Positions 389 to 25,595 of a DNA stretch of 48,193 nt are shown piece after piece. The position numbers were made by a program, and so were the translations under genes. The stretch spans positions 1 through 48,193 of the forward strand of contig JADLEU010000056.1 of the NCBI GenBank assembly GCA_020845955.1, read 5' to 3'. The first letter of the stretch is position 1; each line of letters begins with the position of its first letter. Source of the stretch: Anaerolineales bacterium. GTDB taxonomy: Bacteria; Chloroflexota; Anaerolineae; Anaerolineales; UBA6663. The notes beneath the pieces are model-generated. The model made no database searches, had not been told where the DNA came from, and saw nothing but the letters and a program-made list of their open reading frames with translations.

Positions 389-3300
389 CTACTCGGCGCC
401 GCTGCCGCTGACCAGATCGGCCAGAGGCGTCTCATGCCCGTCTTGACGCTTGAGCACGAGGATCGTCAGGTCATCAAACGGCTCGTTGCCGCCCACGTGC
501 CGCGCGACCGCGGCCGCCAGGGCATCGACCATGGCCTGAGCCGGCTGCCGCCAGGCAGCGCGCACGACCTCCAGCGCTCGCTGCAGGCCGAATTCCTCGA
601 CGCGCGCGTTGACGGCGTCGGTCAGGCCGTCGGTGAACAGCGTCAGCGAGTCGCCCGGCCCAAGCCGGACCTGGTATTCCTGGTACTGCGCGCCCTCGAG
701 CACCCCCAGGGCAATGCCGCGGCCGGGCAGCGTCCGCACCCGGCCGTCGGCAGTTGCCCAGATCGGCGGGTTGTGGCCGCCAACAGCGTAGCGGAACAGG
801 CCCGTTTCCGGCTCCCAGACGCCGTAGAAGATGGTGACGAATTGCTCTGAGCGCGAGTCGGCCAGGATCAATTCGTTGACCCGGGCGAGCGTGTCGGCCG
901 GGCGAACGCGGTTGATGGCCACCGTCCGCATCAGGGTGCGCGACAGGGCCATCAAGAGCGCGGCCGGCACGCCCTTGTCGGCCACGTCGGCGATGACCAG
1001 GCCCCAGCGCGGGCCCTGCTGACCAGGCTGCAGCGCGATGAAGTCATAGAAGTCGCCGCCCACCTGGCGCGCGGCACGCCAGAAGGCGCTGAGTTGCCAG
1101 CCTTCGGCGGCAGGGTAGCTCTGCGGCAAGAAGCTGGCCTGGATGTCGCGGGCCACCTCGAGCTCCCGCTCCAGCCGCTCTTGCGCGGCGACCTCGCGGG
1201 CCAGACGCGCGTTTTCCATCGCCATGGCCAACTGGTGGGCAATGCCATTCAGAATCGTGAGCCGGCGGCCCAGGAGCGGCGCGGCCTGGACCACCAGGAC
1301 GCCCAGCACATCGCCGCGGGCGCGCAGCGGCCAGACGAAGCACTCCTGGCTGCCAAACCATTCCATCAGGCGCTCAGGCAGGCGCAGGCGCCAGGGTGGC
1401 TCCGTGTCGAAAAGCGGATCGTCCGCCTCCAGTCCCAGATCGTCCAGGACGATGCTCAGCGGGAGGGGTCCGCGGTCGGGCGGCTCGTCGAGGCCGGCCG
1501 CCTGACGCAGCCAAAAGGCGCGCGCCTGAGGGTCAAACTGGTAGATGGCCAGTTGATCGATCCCCACCAGGATGGGCGTGAGGCGGCTGACCGTCTCCAG
1601 CCCCTGTTCGAGCGGCTGGCCCGCGACCGACTCGGCCACCTGCAGCAAGGCCGTGCTCACCCAGGCCTCTTCCTGCTGCGAGATCGTCAGCAGGGCGCTC
1701 TCGATCGCCAGGGCAGCCTGGCTGGCGATGCCGCCCATCAGCCGGATGCGGTGGGCCGTGAAGGGGGTCTGGCCGGGCACCTGCCCGACCACAAGCACCC
1801 CCTCCACCCGGCCCTTGGCCAGCAGCGGCAGCAGGATGACGACGCCGACGAAGACCTCGCGCAGTCCCGGCGGCATCTCGTCCTCGGGATCGAGCACCAC
1901 CGGCTCGCGGGTCGCCAGCATCTCGGCAAAGCGCGGCCAGCCCGCGGTGGGCAGCCCCTCGGGAAAGCGCTCGTGAAGCGCAGCGAGCGTCAAGCCGCCG
2001 CCGTCGTCGAGGCCGTTGAAGGCGGCCAGGCGCCAGCCGTCCCTGTCTGCCATCAGGATGGCGCAGCGGTCCACGCCAACCAGCATGGGGGTCAGCCGGG
2101 CCACGGTCTCCAAGACGTCAACCAGCTCGCTGGCGCGGCCGGTGGCGTCGGCCACCTGCAGCAGAGCGGTGCTCACCCAGGCCTGCTCCCGCTGCGCGGT
2201 ATAGAGCCGAGCGTTTTCAATCGCCACCGCTGCCTGTGAGGCAAACGTCACGATTAACTCGATCTCGCTGGCCGGGAAGCGCAGTTGCCCGGCGCTATCG
2301 ACCACCAGATAGCCCACATGCTCGCCGCCGGGCGCCAGCGGCGCGGCGAGGCAGGCATGCGGGTCGGGCAGTGCAACCAGTGCGCGATAGTCCTGGGCCA
2401 CGTCCAACTCGCCGAACGGCAGGACCGTGGGGATTTCTTCGCCCGGGGAAAAGCGGCGGACGTTGAGCGGCAGGCCGATAGCCTCCTCGGTGCCGGGCGC
2501 GCCGCGCATGGCCCGCAGAATCATCTCGCCGGCCTCGTTGACCAGCAGGATCGAAGCCACGTCGTAGCTGACCACCAGGGCCAGGCCAGCCAGGATCATC
2601 TCGAGCACATTGTCGAGCTGCAGCGTGGCGGTGAGCGCGACCGAAACCTCGCGCATGATCTCGGCCAGGTGCCGCCGGCGGCGCTCGTGCTCGAACAGGC
2701 GCGCGTTGCGGACAGCCACGGCCAGTGTGTCGGCCAGGGTCTGCAAGATGCGCGCATCTTCGGCTGTGAACGCGCCTGGCCGTTCGGACTGCACGTCAAA
2801 GACCCCGAGCAACCGGGCGCCCATCGTCATGGGCGCGATCATCTCCGAGCGGGTAGCGGCCAGGCCCGGGCCGGGCACATAATCGGGGTGACGGGTGACG
2901 TCGTCGACGACGATGGTCTGCCGGCTGCGGCCCACCTGGGCGATCAGGCCTGGGCCTTCCAGGTCGTAGGCCAGCCCGTCAATCGACTGCCCAACCGTGC
3001 CAACGCCCAGGCCGGCCTGGAACACCAGCCGGTCTTCCTGTAGCAGAAAGATGCGCGCTGCGTGATACCCGAAGCGGTCGTCGACGACGTCGAGGATTTC
3101 GTCGAGCATGTCGTCTAGGTCGAGTGTCGACGCGACCGTGCGCGCGGCCTGGGCCAGCGCGGCCAACTGCTCGGCCCGGCGCTGTTCGGCGCTATATAGC
3201 TGGGCCTCCAGGATGGCGATCGCCATCTGGGCCGCCAGAGACGTGAACACTGCCGGGGCGCTGTCGTCAAACACACGCCCGCCGGCGTGCACGACGTGCA

Positions 3301-17380: not shown

Positions 17381-17863
17381 TTAGGTTAGGGGGGCAAGGG
17401 TGGGCGCCAAGGCGTGCAACCCCAGCCAATACGAGCGCCAGCCGAAGCCGCGGATCGTCCCCCGGCAGACCGGCGCGAGCAGCGAGCGATGCCGAAAATC
17501 CTCGCGCGCCTCGGTGTTTGACAGGTGAACTTCCACGACGGGCAGCCCGCAGGCCGCCACGGCGTCGCGCAGCGCTACGGAGGTATGCGTGAATCCGCCA
17601 GCGTTGATGATCACCCCCCCGGCCCACTCGCGGGCCGCGTGCAGGGCATCTATAAGCGCGCCTTCATGGTTCGACTGTTGGCTGCGGATTTCCAGGCCGA
17701 GGCGCTGGCCCTCGGCGGACAGCGCGGCATCGATGTCGGCCAGCGTCATCGTCCCGTAGATGTGCGGCTCGCGCGTGCCCAGCAGGTTCAAATTGGGGCC
17801 GTGCAGCACAAGGATAGCGCGCCTTGGCCCGGTGGCTGGCATGCGGGTATCAGACAGGGTCAT
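17381..17863 (-). CDS. aroQ: 3-Dehydroquinate dehydratase, type II
   Basis: 160 residues, the usual type II length. It removes water from 3-dehydroquinate to make 3-dehydroshikimate (third step of the shikimate pathway). Motifs: [17 protein letters not shown] with the catalytic Tyr, [30 protein letters not shown] and [16 protein letters not shown]. The ATG at 17863 was chosen for its strong AAGGAG; it overlaps the end of the aroKB gene by 14 bases. Last intact gene of the aromatic operon, with a redoxin remnant after it. Confidence 0.94.
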
Positions 17864-19406
17864 CGGTGAGCTCCTTAAGGATTTGAGACAAGCAGGCTTC
17901 GCCGGCCTGGTCCAGTGCAACGCCCCAGGCGACCTCGCCCACGCGGCGCGGCAGCGCGAAACGCAGCTGTCCAGCCGCCTTCTTCTTGTCGGTGAGCATG
18001 TGGCTCCGGATGGCGGCGGGGTCCAGCCCCGGGCAGCGCACCGGCAGCCGCAGCCGGACCAGGCAGGCCTCCAACGTCTCGGCCAGTCCCACCGGAGTCA
18101 CCCCCACCTGCTCGGCGAGCCGCGCCTCGGCCGCCAGGCCGATTGCGACCGCCTCGCCGTGCCGCAGCGCAAAGCGCGAGGCCGCCTCGATGCCATGTCC
18201 AATCGTGTGGCCGAGATTTAGGATCGCGCGCTCAGCGTGCTCGAAGGGATCTGCATTGACGATGCCAGCCTTGACGGCTGCAGCGCGCATGATGCCGTCC
18301 TCCAGCGCTAGGGTGCCCCCTGCCAGCCCGGCAAATAGCGCTTCGTCGCCAATCACGCCCGACTTGACGATCTCGGCCAGGCCGCAGCGCACCTCCACTT
18401 CCGGCAGGCTGGCCAGGGTATCAAAATCCGCGGCGACGACAGCCGGTGGATGGAAGGCGCCTACCAGGTTCTTGCCTTCGGGCAGGTCGACGCCCACCTT
18501 GCCGCCCAGGGCGGCGTCAGCCATGGCGAGCACTGTCGTGGGCAGGTTGGCCCAGGCGACGCCTCGCATATAAGTGGCCGCTACAAACCCGGCGACATCG
18601 CCGGTGACCCCGCCGCCCAGCGCCAGCACGGTGCCACCACGCTCGAGACCGTGTGCCACACAGCCCCGGTAAAGGTCGCCCACCGAGCCAAGCGTCTTGT
18701 TGGCTTCTCCCGACGGCAGGGCCAGCACCGGCGCGGCAACAGCCCGAGCCGCCGGCGTGCCGTGGGTCGCCGCTATCGCCGCGTCAGCAATCAAGACGAA
18801 AGGCGGCCGCAGGTCTTTGGCGCCAAGCCAGTCGGGCAGGCGGGCAGCTAGACCACGGCCGTAATAGGCCGAGGTGGGACCTAGCTCAAAGCGGGTGTAG
18901 CCGCGCGCCGCCTCGAAACGGGCCATCACCTCCACGACGACGGCGCCTACCGGCTGGCCGGCGGTCTCGACCTGATTGGGGAACGAGGCGTACAGGGCGC
19001 GCCGCTCGCGCACCAACTGCTCGAGCCGGTCGTTGAGGTCGCCAGCCAGCAGCGGCCGCGCCTGCGCATCCCCGTTCAGGCGCCCGGCCAAGACCGGCAC
19101 TGGCGCGGTCAAACCAACCACCACACCACTGCGCTCGAGACGCGCCCGGGTGCGCGGGTCGAGCAACGCGCCGCCGCCGGTGGCAATGACCAGCCCACCA
19201 CGCTCCGCCAGAATGGCATAGACCTGTGCTTCGCGCGCGCGAAACAACGCCTGCTCGCCGGACGCGAAGTAGTCGGGCACGGGCCGGCCCCAGCGCGCTT
19301 CGAGCCATTGGTCGCCGTCGATAAATTCGCGCCCCAGTTCGCGCGCTACCGCGGTGCCCACGGTGCTCTTGCCGGCGCCGGGCGGGCCGCACAGGATCAG
19401 GTTCAT
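17850..19406 (-). CDS. aroKB: Bifunctional shikimate kinase / 3-dehydroquinate synthase fusion
   Basis: 518 residues from the ATG at 19406. The N-terminal shikimate kinase (about 1-165) has the P-loop [10 protein letters not shown], the shikimate-binding region [12 protein letters not shown] and [11 protein letters not shown]. The rest is dehydroquinate synthase: [64 protein letters not shown] and the metal-binding [13 protein letters not shown]. It makes 3-dehydroquinate (step 2) and phosphorylates shikimate (step 5) in one chain. The same kinase-synthase fusion is known in Thermotoga. It starts 1 base after the aroC stop with only a weak Shine-Dalgarno, which suggests translation by coupling. 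Confidence 0.94.
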
Positions 19407-19407
19407 C

Positions 19408-20610
19408 TCACGGCCACCAGACCCGCGGCACATTCTGCATCGGCAGATCTTCCAGGCGTGCCTGGCGCAAGGCTGCCAAGCGCGGCCGCATTTCAGCCAG
19501 CGAGTCGCCGCCCAGCTTCTCGAGCAGGGCGTCGGCCAATACCAGGCAGACCATGGCCTCGCCCACGATAGCCGCGCGCGGCACAGCGCAAAAGTCGGAG
19601 CGCTCGTAGGCAGTCGGCGAGGCCGCGCCCGAGGCGAGGTCGACCGACTGCAGCGGGGTGAGGGTCGTCGAGATCGGCTTCATGGCCACACGCAGCACAA
19701 CGGGCTGCCCGGTCGTGATGCCGCCCTCCAAGCCCGCGGCCCGGTTGCTGCGCCGCGCGAGGCGGCCGGCCCGGTCATCGGGCGCGAGCACGATCTCATC
19801 ATGGACCTGAGTGCCCGGCAGGCGGGCATTCACAAACGCGTCGCCGATTTCAACGCCCTTCATGGCGTGAATGCTCATCAACGCGCCAGCCAGCCGGCCG
19901 GAGAGCCGCCGATCCCAGTGCACGTGGCTGCCCAGCCCCGGCGGCACACCCAAGGCGACGACCTCAAACAACCCGCCCAGGGTGTCGCGGGCTTGCATCA
20001 CCTCCTGCACGCGCGCGCGCATAGCGGCGGCAGCCTCGGCGCTGGGGCAGTGCATCTCCGAATGAAGCGCCAGCCGCAGCCGATCTTCAAGCTCGATGCC
20101 CGACAGGTCGGCTCGGACGCCGTCGATCTCGGTGACATAGCTGCCGACGCGGATACCGAACTCGTCCAGGAACCGGCGGCAAATGGCCCCGGCCGCCACG
20201 CGGGCGGCGGTCTCGCGGGCCGAGCCGCGCTCGAGGCTCGGCCGCAGATCGGAGTAGCCATATTTCACCGCACCGGTGAGGTCGGAGTGCCCGGGCCGCG
20301 GCACCGTCATCGGCGGCACTGCCCGGCCCTGCCACTTGGCGTGATCCAGGTTGCGAATCTGCACCGTCACGGGCGCGCCGATGGTTTCGCCGTCCAGGAC
20401 GCCGCTCACTATCTCGGCTGCATCGCGCTCGAGCTTCATGCGCGGGCTGGCGCCTGGATAGGGTTTTCCAGAAGCATTCATGCCCTGGCGCAGGGCCAGA
20501 TCGGGATCAATGTCAGCCGCGCTGAGCGGCAGGCCGGCCGGCAGGCCCTCGAGCATCGCAATCACAACTGGCCCGTGCGATTCGCCGGCCGTCAGCAACC
20601 TTAGGGGCAT
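19408..20610 (-). CDS. aroC: Chorismate synthase
   Basis: 400 residues. It makes chorismate from EPSP using reduced FMN. Motifs: TAGESHGPVVIAMLEGLPAG at the start, RPGHSDLTGAVKYGYSDLRP, ERGSARETAARVAAGAICRR, and EGGITTGQPVVLRVAMKPIS towards the C-terminus. The ATG at 20610 has a GAGGTG 7 bases upstream and starts exactly at the conserved N-terminus; an in-frame open stretch upstream is overlap with aroE and is not part of the protein. Sits 5 bases after aroE. Confidence 0.95.
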   Translation of the reverse strand: MPLRLLTAGESHGPVVIAMLEGLPAGLPLSAADIDPDLALRQGMNASGKPYPGASPRMKLERDAAEIVSGVLDGETIGAPVTVQIRNLDHAKWQGRAVPPMTVPRPGHSDLTGAVKYGYSDLRPSLERGSARETAARVAAGAICRRFLDEFGIRVGSYVTEIDGVRADLSGIELEDRLRLALHSEMHCPSAEAAAAMRARVQEVMQARDTLGGLFEVVALGVPPGLGSHVHWDRRLSGRLAGALMSIHAMKGVEIGDAFVNARLPGTQVHDEIVLAPDDRAGRLARRSNRAAGLEGGITTGQPVVLRVAMKPISTTLTPLQSVDLASGAASPTAYERSDFCAVPRAAIVGEAMVCLVLADALLEKLGGDSLAEMRPRLAALRQARLEDLPMQNVPRVWWP

Positions 20611-20615
20611 CTCAG

Positions 20616-21482
20616 TCACCTCTTTGCGAACTGCGCGACCGAGGAGCGCTGCCGGCCGGCGAGGCGGGCTAACTCGGCCTCGGCTGCCTGGCGCATCGCT
20701 GCCCGATCGGCCGCGCGCCCGGTCCACTGCTCGAAAGCCAGGGCGCCCTGCTCCACCAGCATCCCCAGCCCGGTCGCCGACAGTAGGCCGGCCGACCGGG
20801 CGGCGCTCGTCAGCGCCGTGTCGGCCGGGTTGTAGACCAGATCGTAAACAAACGCGCCGGGCGGGAACGGCACGCCTGTCTGCCAGGGCGTCCCTTCGAC
20901 GTGGGGCGCCATGCCGAGCGACGTGGTATTCACAATTAGGGCACAGCCCTCACTCGCCCGAAGCAAGCCGAACGGCGCCCAGTCGTAGACCTCCACGGGC
21001 GCCAGGGCGCCAAGCGCTTCGGCCTGATCCTGGCGGCGGGCCACCACGCGCAGGCGCGCGCCCACACCGGCGCACGCCGCCACGACCGCCCGAGCGGCGC
21101 CTCCGGCCCCAAGCACCAGGACAGCCCGCCGCGCGATGGAGACCTCATGCGCATAGAGATCAGCCAGGAAGCCGGCCGCGTCCGTGTTGTGACCGATCAG
21201 GCTGGAGCCCTGCTTGACGATGGTGTTGACCGCCCCGATAGCGTCGGCCACTGGTGTCAGCCCATCCAGATGCGCGATGACGGCCGACTTGTGGGGCACC
21301 GTGACGTTGGCACCGGCGTAATCCGGCCCGCGCAGTCGTGTGACGGCGGCGCCGACTCCTTCGGCGCGGACCGGCTCGGCCGCGTAGGACCAACCATGCA
21401 GGCCAGCGGAGGCCAGCGCCGCGCGGTGCATGGCCGGCGAGACCGAATGGCCCAGGGGATAGCCGAACAGCACTACGCGCAT
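20616..21482 (-). CDS. aroE: Shikimate dehydrogenase
   Basis: 288 residues, usual size. It reduces 3-dehydroshikimate to shikimate with NADPH. Motifs: GYPLGHSVSPAMHRAAL, NVTVPHKSAVIAHLDGL with the catalytic Lys, GAVNTIVKQGSSLIGHNTDA, and the nucleotide loop LGAGGAARAVVAA. The ATG at 21482 follows the aroA stop by 7 bases and has no Shine-Dalgarno. Instead a TATAAT that includes the aroA stop codon lies exactly 6 bases upstream, so a secondary leaderless transcript could start here inside the operon (inference). Confidence 0.94.
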   Translation of the reverse strand: MRVVLFGYPLGHSVSPAMHRAALASAGLHGWSYAAEPVRAEGVGAAVTRLRGPDYAGANVTVPHKSAVIAHLDGLTPVADAIGAVNTIVKQGSSLIGHNTDAAGFLADLYAHEVSIARRAVLVLGAGGAARAVVAACAGVGARLRVVARRQDQAEALGALAPVEVYDWAPFGLLRASEGCALIVNTTSLGMAPHVEGTPWQTGVPFPPGAFVYDLVYNPADTALTSAARSAGLLSATGLGMLVEQGALAFEQWTGRAADRAAMRQAAEAELARLAGRQRSSVAQFAKR

Positions 21483-21488
21483 GGGCTA

Positions 21489-21494
21489 ATTATA
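21489..21494 (-). promoter_or_regulatory. TATAAT inside the aromatic operon, 6 bases before aroE
   Basis: The minus strand reads TATAAT, TAGCCC, ATG. The hexamer overlaps the last codons of aroA (GTA TAA). No good -35 at 17 bases, so it may be fortuitous; the exact 6-base spacing repeats that of other starts in this window. Confidence 0.35.
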
Positions 21495-22812
21495 CCGGGC
21501 GGAACAGGCGCAAGCTGTCGAGCACTTCGAAGTACCGCGGAAAAGTCTTAGCCACACAGCCCGGGTTCTCAATCGCCACGCCCGGCACGCGCAAGCCGAC
21601 CAAGGCAAAGGCCATCGCCATACGGTGATCCTCGTAGGTCGCGATCACACCGGGACGCAGCTGCGCGGCTGGGTGGATCGTCAGCCCGTCAGGATGCTCA
21701 TCGACGGCCACGCCCAATCGCCGCAGCTCAACGCACATCGCGTGCACCCGGTCGGTCTCTTTGTGCCGGGCTGAGGCAATGCCCCGGATGAGGGTCGGCG
21801 AGGCTGCGAAGGGCGCGATCGCGGCCAGGGTTTGCGCGGTGTCGGGGATGTGGCGCATGTCCGCCGCGACGCCGCGCAGACCGCTCGCGGCCGGGCCGGT
21901 AACGGCCAGGCCGTCGGCGTCGCTCGTGACCTGGCAGCCCATGCTGGCCAGCACGTCGGCAAAGGCCACGTCGCCCTGGCGCGATTGGCGCGAAACGTTG
22001 GCGACGCGCACTGTCCCGCCCAGGATGGCGGGAGCGGCCAAGAAATACGAGGCGGCCGAAGCGTCGCCCTCGATGGCATAACTGGTCTGAGCCCGGTAGG
22101 TCTGCGGCGCGGCGCGGAAGCGCCGATATGCGTCGCGATGCACGGTCACACCGAAATCGGCCATCAACGCCAGGGTAAGGTCCACGTAGGGCGCCGAGCT
22201 TAGCTCGCCGTCGATGTGCAGTTCCACCGGCTGCCGGGCATAGGGGGCCACCAACAGCAGCCCGCTCAGAAACTGGCTGCTGACGCTGCCCGCCACGCGC
22301 GCCGCGCCGCCCGGCAGCCCCGCGGCCGTGACGCACACCGGCGGGCAGCCGCTGGGGCTGGAAACCACGGCGCCTAACTCGGTCAGGGCGGCCAGCAGGT
22401 CGGTGATCGGCCGTTCGCGCATGCGGGCATTGCCGTCCAGTACGAAGCGGCCGTGCCCGAGCGTGAGCATGGCCGTGAGAAAGCGCGCCGAGGTGCCCGA
22501 ATTGCCAATGTAAAGCTCGGCTTCGCCGGCGGGAATGCGCCCACCCTGCCCGTCGATCACAAAGCGCTCGCCGGCCTCGTCGGCAGCGACGTCAAAGCCC
22601 AGGCGGCGCAAGGCGGCGGCACAATATTGGGAATCATCCGAGAACAGCGCACCGCGCAACTCGGTGCGCCCGGCCGCCAGCGCGGCGGTAATCAGCGCCC
22701 GGTTGGTCAGGCTCTTGGAGCCTGGGACGCGCACGACGGCGTCGAGCGGTTGGCCGATCGGGTCAATGGTGCGCACCACGGGTGTTGGGGGCGAGGCGGC
22801 CGCTGCGTTCAT
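21490..22812 (-). CDS. aroA: 3-Phosphoshikimate 1-carboxyvinyltransferase (EPSP synthase)
   Basis: 440 residues. It joins PEP to shikimate-3-phosphate. Motifs: VRVPGSKSLTNRALITAALA (PEP and shikimate binding), ELYIGNSGTSARFLTAMLTL, ASARHKETDRVHAM and YEDHRMAMAFALVGL. The start ATG overlaps the tyrA stop in an ATGA arrangement. A short N-terminal extension (NAAAASPPTPVVRTIDPIGQ) precedes the conserved core. I do not judge glyphosate class from sequence alone. Confidence 0.95.
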   Translation of the reverse strand: MNAAAASPPTPVVRTIDPIGQPLDAVVRVPGSKSLTNRALITAALAAGRTELRGALFSDDSQYCAAALRRLGFDVAADEAGERFVIDGQGGRIPAGEAELYIGNSGTSARFLTAMLTLGHGRFVLDGNARMRERPITDLLAALTELGAVVSSPSGCPPVCVTAAGLPGGAARVAGSVSSQFLSGLLLVAPYARQPVELHIDGELSSAPYVDLTLALMADFGVTVHRDAYRRFRAAPQTYRAQTSYAIEGDASAASYFLAAPAILGGTVRVANVSRQSRQGDVAFADVLASMGCQVTSDADGLAVTGPAASGLRGVAADMRHIPDTAQTLAAIAPFAASPTLIRGIASARHKETDRVHAMCVELRRLGVAVDEHPDGLTIHPAAQLRPGVIATYEDHRMAMAFALVGLRVPGVAIENPGCVAKTFPRYFEVLDSLRLFRPV

Positions 22813-23678
22813 TGGAAGAGGCCCCGCCGCCGGTCGAAGGCCTGCGTGAGAAAGTCGCGCAGCGCCTCGACCGCACCGTCCTGCAGCAACGCCGACAGGG
22901 TGGCGGCTTCTGCCTGGTAGCGTTCCAGTGCCGCGAGGATCGCGGAACGATTGGTCAACAGGATATCAAGCATCATCGTGACATCACTGGCTGCCAGACG
23001 CGAAGTGTCGCGAAAACCCGACGCCGCCAGCTGCCACACCTGCGGATCGCCGGCGGCCTCGGCGGCGCGCACCAACAAGGCCGCTGCCAGGTAGGGCAGA
23101 TGGCTGCTGTGGGCCGCGAGTGTGTCGTGGCGGTCGGGCGACAACGCGAGCGGCCGTGCGCCCACCGCGGCCACTAGGGCGCGCGCCAGCGATAACGCCT
23201 TGGGCGAGGTGCGCGCCAAGGGTGTCAACACAAAAAGCTTGTCGCGAAACAGGCTGGCTTCGGCGTGCGCCAGGCCGCTGACTTCCTTCCCGCACATCGG
23301 GTGCCCGCCGAGCGGGTCCCAGCCGGACGGAAGCGCCTGCATCGCGGCGACGATCTGGGCCTTGGTCGACCCCAGATCAAGCAGCACGGTCGGGTGCTCC
23401 AGCGCCGGGCGCCTGGCGAAGTCCTGAACGAGGGCGGTAATGGCTCGCACCGGCGCGGCCAGAATCAGCACATCGGCGGCCAGCGCGCCATCCAGCTCGG
23501 CCGCGCGATCGACCGCGCCGCACTCGAGGGCCAGGGCGCAGGCCCGCGGATCTGGATCTACGCCGACAATCGACCGGCAATGGCTGCGCAGGGCCAGGGC
23601 CAGCGACCCGCCCATGAGGCCCAACCCGACGACGGCGACCTCGGCCGCGGCCAAGCGCGCAAAGCCATCCTCATCCAT
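22809..23678 (-). CDS. tyrA: Prephenate dehydrogenase
   Basis: 289 residues. It oxidatively decarboxylates prephenate to 4-hydroxyphenylpyruvate, the committed step to tyrosine. Rossmann motif VAVVGLGLMGGSLALALRS (about 13-31), LDLGSTKAQIVAAM, GGHPMCGKEVSGLAHA, and the substrate-binding HDTLAAHSSHLPYLAAALL. No chorismate mutase or ACT domain is fused; the mutase is the separate aroH upstream. It starts 12 bases after aroF and overlaps aroA by 4. No prephenate dehydratase (pheA) is present in the window, though the operon leader contains Phe codons as well as Tyr codons. Confidence 0.93.
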   Translation of the reverse strand: MDEDGFARLAAAEVAVVGLGLMGGSLALALRSHCRSIVGVDPDPRACALALECGAVDRAAELDGALAADVLILAAPVRAITALVQDFARRPALEHPTVLLDLGSTKAQIVAAMQALPSGWDPLGGHPMCGKEVSGLAHAEASLFRDKLFVLTPLARTSPKALSLARALVAAVGARPLALSPDRHDTLAAHSSHLPYLAAALLVRAAEAAGDPQVWQLAASGFRDTSRLAASDVTMMLDILLTNRSAILAALERYQAEAATLSALLQDGAVEALRDFLTQAFDRRRGLFQ

Positions 23679-23690
23679 GCCGATGGCCGC

Positions 23691-24701
<1,011 letters not shown>

Positions 24702-24708
24702 GGCTGAT

Positions 24709-25119
24709 TCATCCTTTCGGGCTGACGGCGCTGGTGCAGGCCGCCGAGTGGTTGCCGCGGAGCGCGCGGTCGGGCCGGAGCTTCTGGGCAGCGTGCAGAT
24801 AGACATGAGCAACCTCGTCCGGCCAACGCTCGGTGTTCCAATGGATCAAGACTCGGATGCAGCGTGGCAGACTGTCGGGCACGGCCATCTCAGCCACGCA
24901 CATGAGCGCCGTATCGTCCCAGCCCAGTTCACGCGCCGCGCGCGCCGGCGCCTCGGCGCTCAGGTCGGGCGTGACGGTGAAAATGACGCTGGCCACGTCC
25001 GCCGGGCGCAGCTGATTGGCCTCGGTGAGGGCCAGGAGCAGCTCGCGCGTCGCCCCGCGAATTGCTTCGGGAGTATCCACCGTGGCGACAGTCGCGCCGC
25101 GGATGCCTCGAACTGGCAT
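24709..25119 (-). CDS. aroH: Chorismate mutase, AroH type
   Basis: 136 residues, a monofunctional trimeric AroH-class mutase (chorismate to prephenate) like that of Bacillus subtilis. Conserved: [20 protein letters not shown] at the start, [20 protein letters not shown], and [20 protein letters not shown] with the active-site Arg. The last about 25 residues ([12 protein letters not shown] at the end) form an extra tail that carries the aroF ribosome-binding site in its DNA. The ATG at 25119 has a strong GGAGGAG and is the first structural gene after the leader/terminator region. Confidence 0.93.
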
Positions 25120-25146
25120 ACCTGCTCCTCCAAGAAACGCTTAAGC

Positions 25147-25176
25147 AAAAACCGCGAGGCCGATGGCCTCGCGGTT
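25147..25176 (-). terminator. Intrinsic terminator in the aromatic operon leader (attenuator)
   Basis: A perfect 12-bp inverted repeat on the minus strand, AACCGCGAGGCC - ATC - GGCCTCGCGGTT, running into TTTTT then GC. It lies 28 bases before the aroH start and 27 bases after the leader-peptide stop. A terminator between promoter and first gene only makes sense as a conditional (attenuation) element or as the end of a short RNA. Confidence 0.85.
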
Positions 25177-25178
25177 CC

Positions 25179-25205
25179 TGAGTAACTGCTTGGGGCGTCT
25201 ACTCA
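25179..25205 (-). promoter_or_regulatory. Candidate pause/alternative hairpin of the aromatic attenuator
   Basis: TGAGTA (25200-25205) and TACTCA (25179-25184) can pair around a 15-base loop, two bases ahead of the terminator stem. The TGA of the first arm is the leader-peptide stop codon, so a ribosome finishing the leader would prevent this stem. A rival pairing joins leader bases 25205-25215 (GGCTTGCGTTT) to the terminator's first arm, imperfectly. Which fold acts as antiterminator is not settled by eye. Confidence 0.4.
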
Positions 25206-25283
25206 AACGCAAGCCACGGCTACGCCAGAACGGCGACCGTAAAAGTAGAACGCATAAAAGTAGAAGGCCGTTTTAGAGCGCAT
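25203..25283 (-). CDS. Phe/Tyr-rich leader peptide of the aromatic operon
   Basis: A 26-codon ORF (ATG at 25283, TGA at 25203-25205) in the 5' leader of aroH. Residues 7-15 read FYFYAFYFY: eight of nine consecutive codons are Phe (TTC/TTT) or Tyr (TAC/TAT), then GRRSGVAVACV and stop. It starts about 10 bases after a -10 box, so it is translated almost from the 5' end, and it is followed by a strong intrinsic terminator. This is the layout of ribosome-mediated attenuation as in the E. coli pheA leader, but here it would sense both Phe and Tyr. When charged tRNA-Phe or tRNA-Tyr is scarce the ribosome would stall on the FYFY run and favour read-through into the eight aromatic genes (inference). 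Confidence 0.88.
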   Translation of the reverse strand: MRSKTAFYFYAFYFYGRRSGVAVACV

Positions 25284-25293
25284 AAGTATGAGG

Positions 25294-25323
25294 AGATTAG
25301 CATAATTCCGCGGGGCAAGTCAA
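25294..25323 (-). promoter_or_regulatory. Promoter of the aromatic operon
   Basis: On the minus strand TTGACT (25318-25323), 18-base spacer, TAATCT (25294-25299) preceded by TG (extended -10). Predicted start near 25287, only a few bases before the leader-peptide ATG. Confidence 0.6.
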
Positions 25324-25371: not shown

Positions 25372-25400
25372 TTGACGCCTTGACGGCCCCATGTTAAACT
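25372..25400 (+). promoter_or_regulatory. Promoter of the aminotransferase leader
   Basis: TTGACG (25372-25377), exact 17-base spacer, TAAACT (25395-25400) with TG three bases before it. The predicted +1 is the G of a GTG codon at 25407. It is divergent from the aromatic-operon promoter with about 48 bases between the -35 boxes. Confidence 0.7.
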
Positions 25401-25406
25401 CGCGCC

Positions 25407-25475
25407 GTGCTCAAATTTGGGCAGTTTGGACGTCGCCAGGCGACGAACGGCACGACTACCCGTGCGGCCCGTTGA
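25407..25475 (+). CDS. Candidate leaderless leader peptide before the aminotransferase gene
   Basis: A 22-codon ORF beginning with GTG exactly 6 bases after the -10 box and ending TGA at 25473-25475: LKFGQFGRRQ then ATNGTTTRAAR after the initiator. It contains two Phe, four Thr and four Arg codons, so no single amino acid dominates as in the two other leaders in this window. Support comes from position (at the predicted +1), from the strong terminator 40 bases later, and from hairpins overlapping its second half. Whether it is translated is unproven; an untranslated riboswitch-like leader is the main alternative. Confidence 0.4.
   Translation: MLKFGQFGRRQATNGTTTRAAR
25431..25473 (+). promoter_or_regulatory. 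Two stable hairpins in the aminotransferase 5' leader
   Basis: First stem CGTCGC-CAG-GCGACG (25431-25445). Second stem AACGG (25446-25450) with CCGTT (25469-25473), enclosing CACG/CGTG around a 6-base loop. GGCGAC in the first stem could instead pair with GTCGCC at 25499-25504 near the terminator, giving an alternative fold. The arrangement resembles a transcription attenuator or an unclassified riboswitch. Confidence 0.45.
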
Positions 25476-25514
25476 GGGTGTGTCGGCTACGCCTGTCTGT
25501 CGCCTGAAACAGTT

Positions 25515-25546
25515 GGCCCCGGCATACCCGCCGGGGCCTTTTTTTT
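25515..25546 (+). terminator. Strong intrinsic terminator upstream of the aminotransferase gene
   Basis: GGCCCCGGC - ATACCC - GCCGGGGCC followed by eight T (25539-25546), 50 bases before the gene's ATG. Textbook form. Since it lies between a consensus promoter and the gene, read-through must be regulated or the promoter serves a short RNA. Confidence 0.88.
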
Positions 25547-25595
25547 GCCTGGCGCGTGCCGCCGCGGCCCAGGCCCTATTGAAAGGTCTGTCCTC

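Follow-up and report, generated by a model that had tools for sequence, protein, structure and literature searches.

When a short open reading frame made largely of Phe and Tyr codons lies ahead of a set of shikimate pathway genes, it raises the question of whether the leader is a ribosome-mediated transcription attenuator and, if so, which amino acids it reads. Such a frame lies on the minus strand of the 48,193-nt Anaerolineales contig analysed here in its entirety ("the window"). The initial annotation of this DNA had proposed a dual Phe/Tyr attenuator that controls an eight-gene operon.

Anatomy of the leader

The promoter had been described as consensus-like. This holds for the -35 box, TTGACT (25318..25323, minus strand), a TTGAC-type element found at the same position in most relatives, while the -10 region (25294..25301, minus strand) is weaker than claimed and its exact box is ambiguous. 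GCTAAT (25301-25296) gives a spacer of 16 and TAATCT (25299-25294) a spacer of 18; the latter is suggested by analogy with two relatives (L010 and L011). The ATG of the leader peptide, at 25283, is located 10-12 nt downstream of the -10 box. The reading frame, MRSKTAFYFYAFYFYGRRSGVAVACV (25203..25283, minus strand), has 26 codons and no Shine-Dalgarno sequence, and its control codons, FYFYAFYFY, occupy codons 7 to 15 (25239..25265), exactly as first described.

The stem that had been noticed over the stop codon corresponds to a predicted antiterminator. Its 5' arm, GUGGCUUGCGUUUGAGUAG (25199..25217, minus strand), runs from the last leader codons through the stop codon and pairs with a 3' arm at 25163..25185, which overlaps the 5' arm of the terminator. 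The intrinsic terminator, AACCGCGAGGCC-ATC-GGCCTCGCGGTT (25150..25176, minus strand), lies 25 nt from the stop codon and has the 12-bp stem reported earlier, a loop of ATC, a folding energy of -24.6 kcal/mol and a short T-run (about 25146..25151). It was absent from the output of a simple terminator scan of the window, probably because G-T pairs prolong the stem into the T-run. Beyond it, the strong Shine-Dalgarno sequence of aroH, GGAGGAG (25125..25131, minus strand), precedes the ATG at 25119, as had been noted.

The entire leader folds with a z score of -4.4. A scan of the window against Rfam 15 returned only tRNAs, with no leader, T-box or riboswitch family at the curated threshold; the leader region itself gave a sub-threshold match to the L20 leader (14.3 of 42.8 bits). 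The sequence TTYTAYTTYTAY occurs five times in the 6.06-Mb genome, and two of the five are in this leader. This rarity, together with an aromatic run that is kept in more than 100 relatives, indicates that the F/Y leader is more than chance.

The operon downstream

Assignments by NCBIfam bear out the proposed operon from DAHP synthase to tyrA and aroQ, with a chorismate mutase gene in first position. On the minus strand these genes are aroH (24709..25119; AroH type, TIGR01796, PF07736); aroF, DAHP synthase with a ferredoxin-like regulatory domain (23691..24812; PF00793, PF18152), whose true start is probably inside the ORF; tyrA, prephenate/arogenate dehydrogenase (22809..23678, NCBIfam); aroA, EPSP synthase (21490..22812, TIGR01356); aroE, shikimate dehydrogenase (20616..21482, NCBIfam); aroC, chorismate synthase (19408..20727, TIGR00033); an aroK-aroB fusion for shikimate kinase and 3-dehydroquinate synthase (17850..19433, NCBIfam); and aroQ, type II 3-dehydroquinate dehydratase (17381..17920, TIGR01088). 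Because the eight genes overlap or nearly abut, they are likely to form a single transcription unit, and by the NCBIfam gene calls its products include prephenate and Tyr precursors. In the DAHP synthase of Thermotoga maritima, the PF18152 ferredoxin-like domain mediates inhibition by Phe and Tyr. Given this domain on the DAHP synthase of the window, Phe and Tyr would act on both the enzyme and the gene.

Almost every genome examined has the aroH-aroF pair behind the leader. All eight genes stand in this order in several genomes on the Anaerolineae side, part of the order is found in others, and Chloroflexus-type genomes have only aroH-aroF nearby. Two relatives (L255 and L260) carry a tandem aroF pair between aroH and tyrA. 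In two others, likely AroH-PheA fusions, single open frames of 441 and 486 aa, lie directly behind the F/Y leader (L010, G006:C34:107805-108749, and L008, G020:C87:28099-29040, respectively). In several genomes of the order (e.g. G009, G013, G022, G026 and G030), neither aroH nor the matching aroF type was found, which suggests loss or replacement of the pathway entry enzyme.

Conservation among relatives

Loci were gathered by searching the order, class and phylum for AroH and by scanning named genomes, which put the window in Chloroflexota, close to Anaerolineae. A leader was scored upstream of aroH when at least 5 of 10 codons were F, Y or W. The counts that follow are not additive, since some loci fall in two groups: an aromatic-rich leader was present at 25 of 27 loci in the order of the window and at all 4 further loci of that order, at 45 of 47 other loci of the class, at all 20 of the best phylum matches and, among named Chloroflexota, at 63 of 66 loci, with Chloroflexus, Roseiflexus, Oscillochloris, Chloroploca and Kouleothrix represented. 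A terminator accompanies every one of the 25 order leaders (-16 to -26 kcal/mol) and 42 of the 45 class leaders. Both the run and the terminator are clearly kept; the lack of conservation that had been named as counting against the attenuator was not found.

The leader was missing from seven aroH loci (L021, L025, L086, L089, L170, L212 and L222). Other Chloroflexota families have it at 5 of 38 aroH loci, some of these by chance, and lack it at the remaining 33, and none of 12 aroH loci from Desulfobacterota and Planctomycetota has it. When at least 6 of 10 codons are required to be aromatic, the sense strand yields 86% of order loci, 89% of class loci and 73% of named loci, while the antisense strand yields 0% and dinucleotide shuffles 1-3%. 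The aromatic run is, then, a feature of the sense strand. Searches elsewhere found no Trp-rich leader upstream of trpE (10 relatives' loci), no aromatic leader upstream of pheA (14 loci) and none upstream of aroF where the genome has no aroH (6 loci).

A predicted switch between terminator and antiterminator

The pairing of the terminator 5' arm with upstream RNA was computed with the ribosome placed on the leader, at the moment before the terminator 3' arm has been made. Over 116 leaders, the predicted pairing is 0.78 with the ribosome stalled on the last codon of the run versus 0.30 with the ribosome at the stop codon, and 110 of the 116 change in the expected direction (stalled above stop). 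The corresponding values are 0.76 versus 0.35 for the 25 order leaders, for which the same stall with a shuffled linker gives 0.62, and 0.80 versus 0.31 for the window leader. Geometry agrees with these values. With a ribosome footprint taken as about 13 nt, the antiterminator arm would begin outside a stalled ribosome and end under a terminating one: its start lies a median of 24 nt past the last control codon, and its end is usually 0-3 nt short of the stop.

Support for the predicted antiterminator comes from the family; in the window alone it does not go beyond shuffled linkers, as 14 of 100 shuffles are equal to it and the MFE z score is -1.8. RNAalifold on a plain sequence alignment of the leaders gave no consensus structure, since the register of the arms shifts and there is competition between alternative pairings, and a comparison of matched with swapped arms was used instead. 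Free linkers pair with their own terminator 5' arm at -17.6 kcal/mol versus -14.8 kcal/mol when swapped (z -11.4, 0 of 5000 permutations, figures that are not independent, as the loci are related and some occur under two names). The control pairing, linker with terminator 3' arm, gives z +1.2, so neither composition nor kinship by itself accounts for the signal at the 5' arm. The F/Y run likewise prefers its own post-stop segment (matched versus swapped, z -5.8), a pairing that also appears in the fold of the window leader and that is predicted to be the lock expected when the leader is untranslated. At equilibrium, the terminator is the preferred fold of the full-length window leader even when a ribosome is stalled on it; therefore antitermination must be kinetic, occurring during transcription as in known attenuators.

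The attenuator reading thus stands as first proposed: leader ORF, terminator and alternative antiterminator are present and are supported by comparison, and a ribosome-mediated transcription attenuator very probably controls the aroH operon. Anatomy, conservation and arm-arm co-variation were computed; from these we infer the transcription start, stalling, termination and response to Phe and Tyr.

Which amino acids are read

F and Y codons are both present in 131 of 132 distinct leaders, whose runs differ in order, length and spacing and total 435 F, 405 Y and 50 W codons. Both synonyms are used for each of the two main residues (TTT 321, TTC 114; TAC 220, TAT 185). Together with the stall geometry, the conserved codon types make dual sensing of Phe and Tyr well supported by sequence.

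An attenuator that is effectively Phe-only, its Tyr codons contributing little, has one precedent in Corynebacterium glutamicum. There the AroR leader peptide, encoded upstream of aroF, contains Phe-Tyr-Phe and acts by transcription attenuation (PMC11802643, PMC4046766), and it is reported to answer to Phe and not to Tyr, the operon being unaffected by Tyr availability (review PMC11802643). The present leaders argue against the same behavior: F and Y are near equal in number and change order from leader to leader, tyrA is inside the operon, and in the window stalls anywhere from F7 to Y15 give equal predicted antiterminator availability (0.79-0.80), whether on an F or a Y codon. Phe-only control is accordingly judged unlikely. 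The dual sensing of the initial annotation therefore keeps its codon and geometric support, with the response to Tyr, given the reportedly Phe-only AroR, a conditional part of it.

Sensing of all three aromatic amino acids seems improbable to the same degree. It would fit the Trp codons in the runs of 41 of the 132 leaders (e.g. RWFAFYFYYG and FYFYAYWF), the position of chorismate, the operon product, as common precursor, and the lack of a Trp-rich leader at trpE in the 10 relatives examined. Yet 91 of the runs are without Trp, that of the window among them, and the W-count per window is no higher than in the antisense strand or shuffles.

A TnaC-like arrest peptide, whose nascent chain would bind free Phe or Tyr and stall, is very improbable. 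Peptide tails are indeed alike within families (AVGGA, AVASR, DWSLRIS), but this is explained by the bases that encode them, which form part of the segment pairing with the terminator arm; the tails differ among families, and the aromatic run, unlike an arrest motif, varies in order, length and spacing. Equally remote is a reading without translational regulation, whether as a simple terminator in the leader that is read through constitutively or as a small Phe/Tyr-rich peptide with a function of its own, since run, stop and terminator keep their spacing, the arms co-vary and the leader is placed specifically before aroH.

Translation start and proposed mechanism

In 22 of the 25 order leaders, only 6-12 nt separate the end of the -10 element from the ATG, and an SD-like sequence is found in 1 of the 25. 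The short gap and the near absence of SD sequences suggest that the leader ORF begins right at the RNA 5' end or close to it. In the order of the window the leader thus appears to be nearly leaderless, with the transcription start estimated from the -10-to-AUG distance. Other members of the class and the Chloroflexia often have a gap of 15-40 nt and sometimes an SD-like sequence, and the near-leaderless start is not general in Chloroflexia.

Under the proposed attenuation mechanism, RNA polymerase would initiate just upstream of the leader AUG, at a distance of a few bases, with a ribosome loading immediately on the near-leaderless start. With Phe- and Tyr-tRNA charged, it would pass the F/Y run, reach the stop codon and cover the antiterminator 5' arm; the 12-bp terminator could then form and transcription would end before aroH. 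If either charged tRNA were scarce, the ribosome would stall within the run and leave the last codons free to pair with the terminator 5' arm, so that polymerase would continue through the eight genes. In an untranslated leader, the run would pair with the purine-rich sequence after the stop and sequester the last codons, and termination would be favoured.

On balance, the leaders seem likely to constitute an old attenuator family of the Chloroflexota, spanning Anaerolineae and Chloroflexia, in which Phe and Tyr (in some species Trp as well) are read jointly to set the shikimate trunk as a whole, with leaderless initiation in the order of the window such that the ribosome would test every leader transcript from its first bases. 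The initial annotation, sound in its main account, did not include the apparent near-leaderless start, the Trp codons or the phylogenetic breadth.

Relation to known systems

The mechanism is classical attenuation of the pheA/trp type. In E. coli, the pheL (pheA) and pheST leaders consist of a short ORF with Phe codons, alternative hairpins and an intrinsic terminator. The window leader resembles them in its control-codon ORF, its alternative hairpins and its terminator before aromatic genes; it differs in that the E. coli leaders read only Phe, have an ORF led by a Shine-Dalgarno sequence and control a branch gene or a synthetase rather than the shikimate trunk. Single leaders with codons for several of the amino acids made by the operon are found at E. 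coli ilvGMEDA (Ile/Val/Leu) and thrABC (Thr/Ile), and the present leader is like these, with other amino acids. Leader peptides without a ribosome binding site have counterparts in Actinobacteria: the C. glutamicum ilvBNC leader ORF was reportedly found to be leaderless by Morbach in 2000, and the same is said of mycobacterial poly-cysteine uORFs in work by Canestrari in 2020. The leaders of the window's order would share this feature in another phylum and for other amino acids, and those of the Chloroflexia differ from it in a longer 5' UTR and, sometimes, an SD-like sequence. The E. coli pheA and pheST attenuators are also mentioned in a review (PMC11802643).

Judged by published descriptions, AroR appears to be the closest known case, the likeness being functional: a leader peptide with Phe and Tyr codons governs DAHP synthase by transcription attenuation. 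AroR has three control codons and stands before aroF in Actinobacteria, whereas the window leader has eight and stands before an eight-gene operon that begins with aroH. The initial annotation, in which no such dual leader was known for this type of bacterium, had missed this precedent. A search of open-licence papers found nothing about attenuation by leader peptides at aromatic genes of Chloroflexi/Chloroflexota. In a survey from 2010, leader-peptide systems were described as known until then only in Proteobacteria and Actinobacteria, and Firmicutes were added (PMC2965389). A conserved Phe and Tyr (sometimes Trp) leader across two Chloroflexota groups, apparently near-leaderless in the order of the window, seems to be undescribed.

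Such a family widens the known range of leader-peptide attenuation and provides a first handle on the regulation of aromatic amino acids in these mostly uncultured bacteria. Its more than 100 natural variants are a resource on the fit of control codons, ribosome footprint and hairpins, and they pose the question of whether alternating codons can let one leader sum two amino acids, AroR notwithstanding.

Neighbouring and second candidate regulators

Divergent from the leader, at 25372-25594 on the plus strand, lies a promoter-like TTGACG-17-TAAACT, followed by a transcript of about 145 nt that is strongly structured (z -2.6) and, upstream of a PLP aminotransferase gene, by a GC-rich terminator ending in T8. 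The element is 84% identical over 98 bp to one in a relative (G001) and matches no Rfam family at threshold. It is possibly a second attenuator, a riboswitch or a small RNA.

The same genome also has a leader ORF rich in Leu, Ile and Val, MTTSLLVVLIVVLIGVLVENPFPVGLATVRIRHK, with a strong terminator at the ilv-leu cluster (L323, G000:C205, reverse complement position 3207). Leader and terminator recur in 6 of 7 relatives (L324, L325, L326, L328, L329 and L330), and this is likely a second attenuator. In this genome (G000:C205:10556-11089) and in relatives, the pheA gene, for prephenate dehydratase, shares a contig with leuA and lies near it, and in G000 it occupies the 3' end of the ilv-leu cluster; given this location, branched-chain control may extend to the Phe branch.
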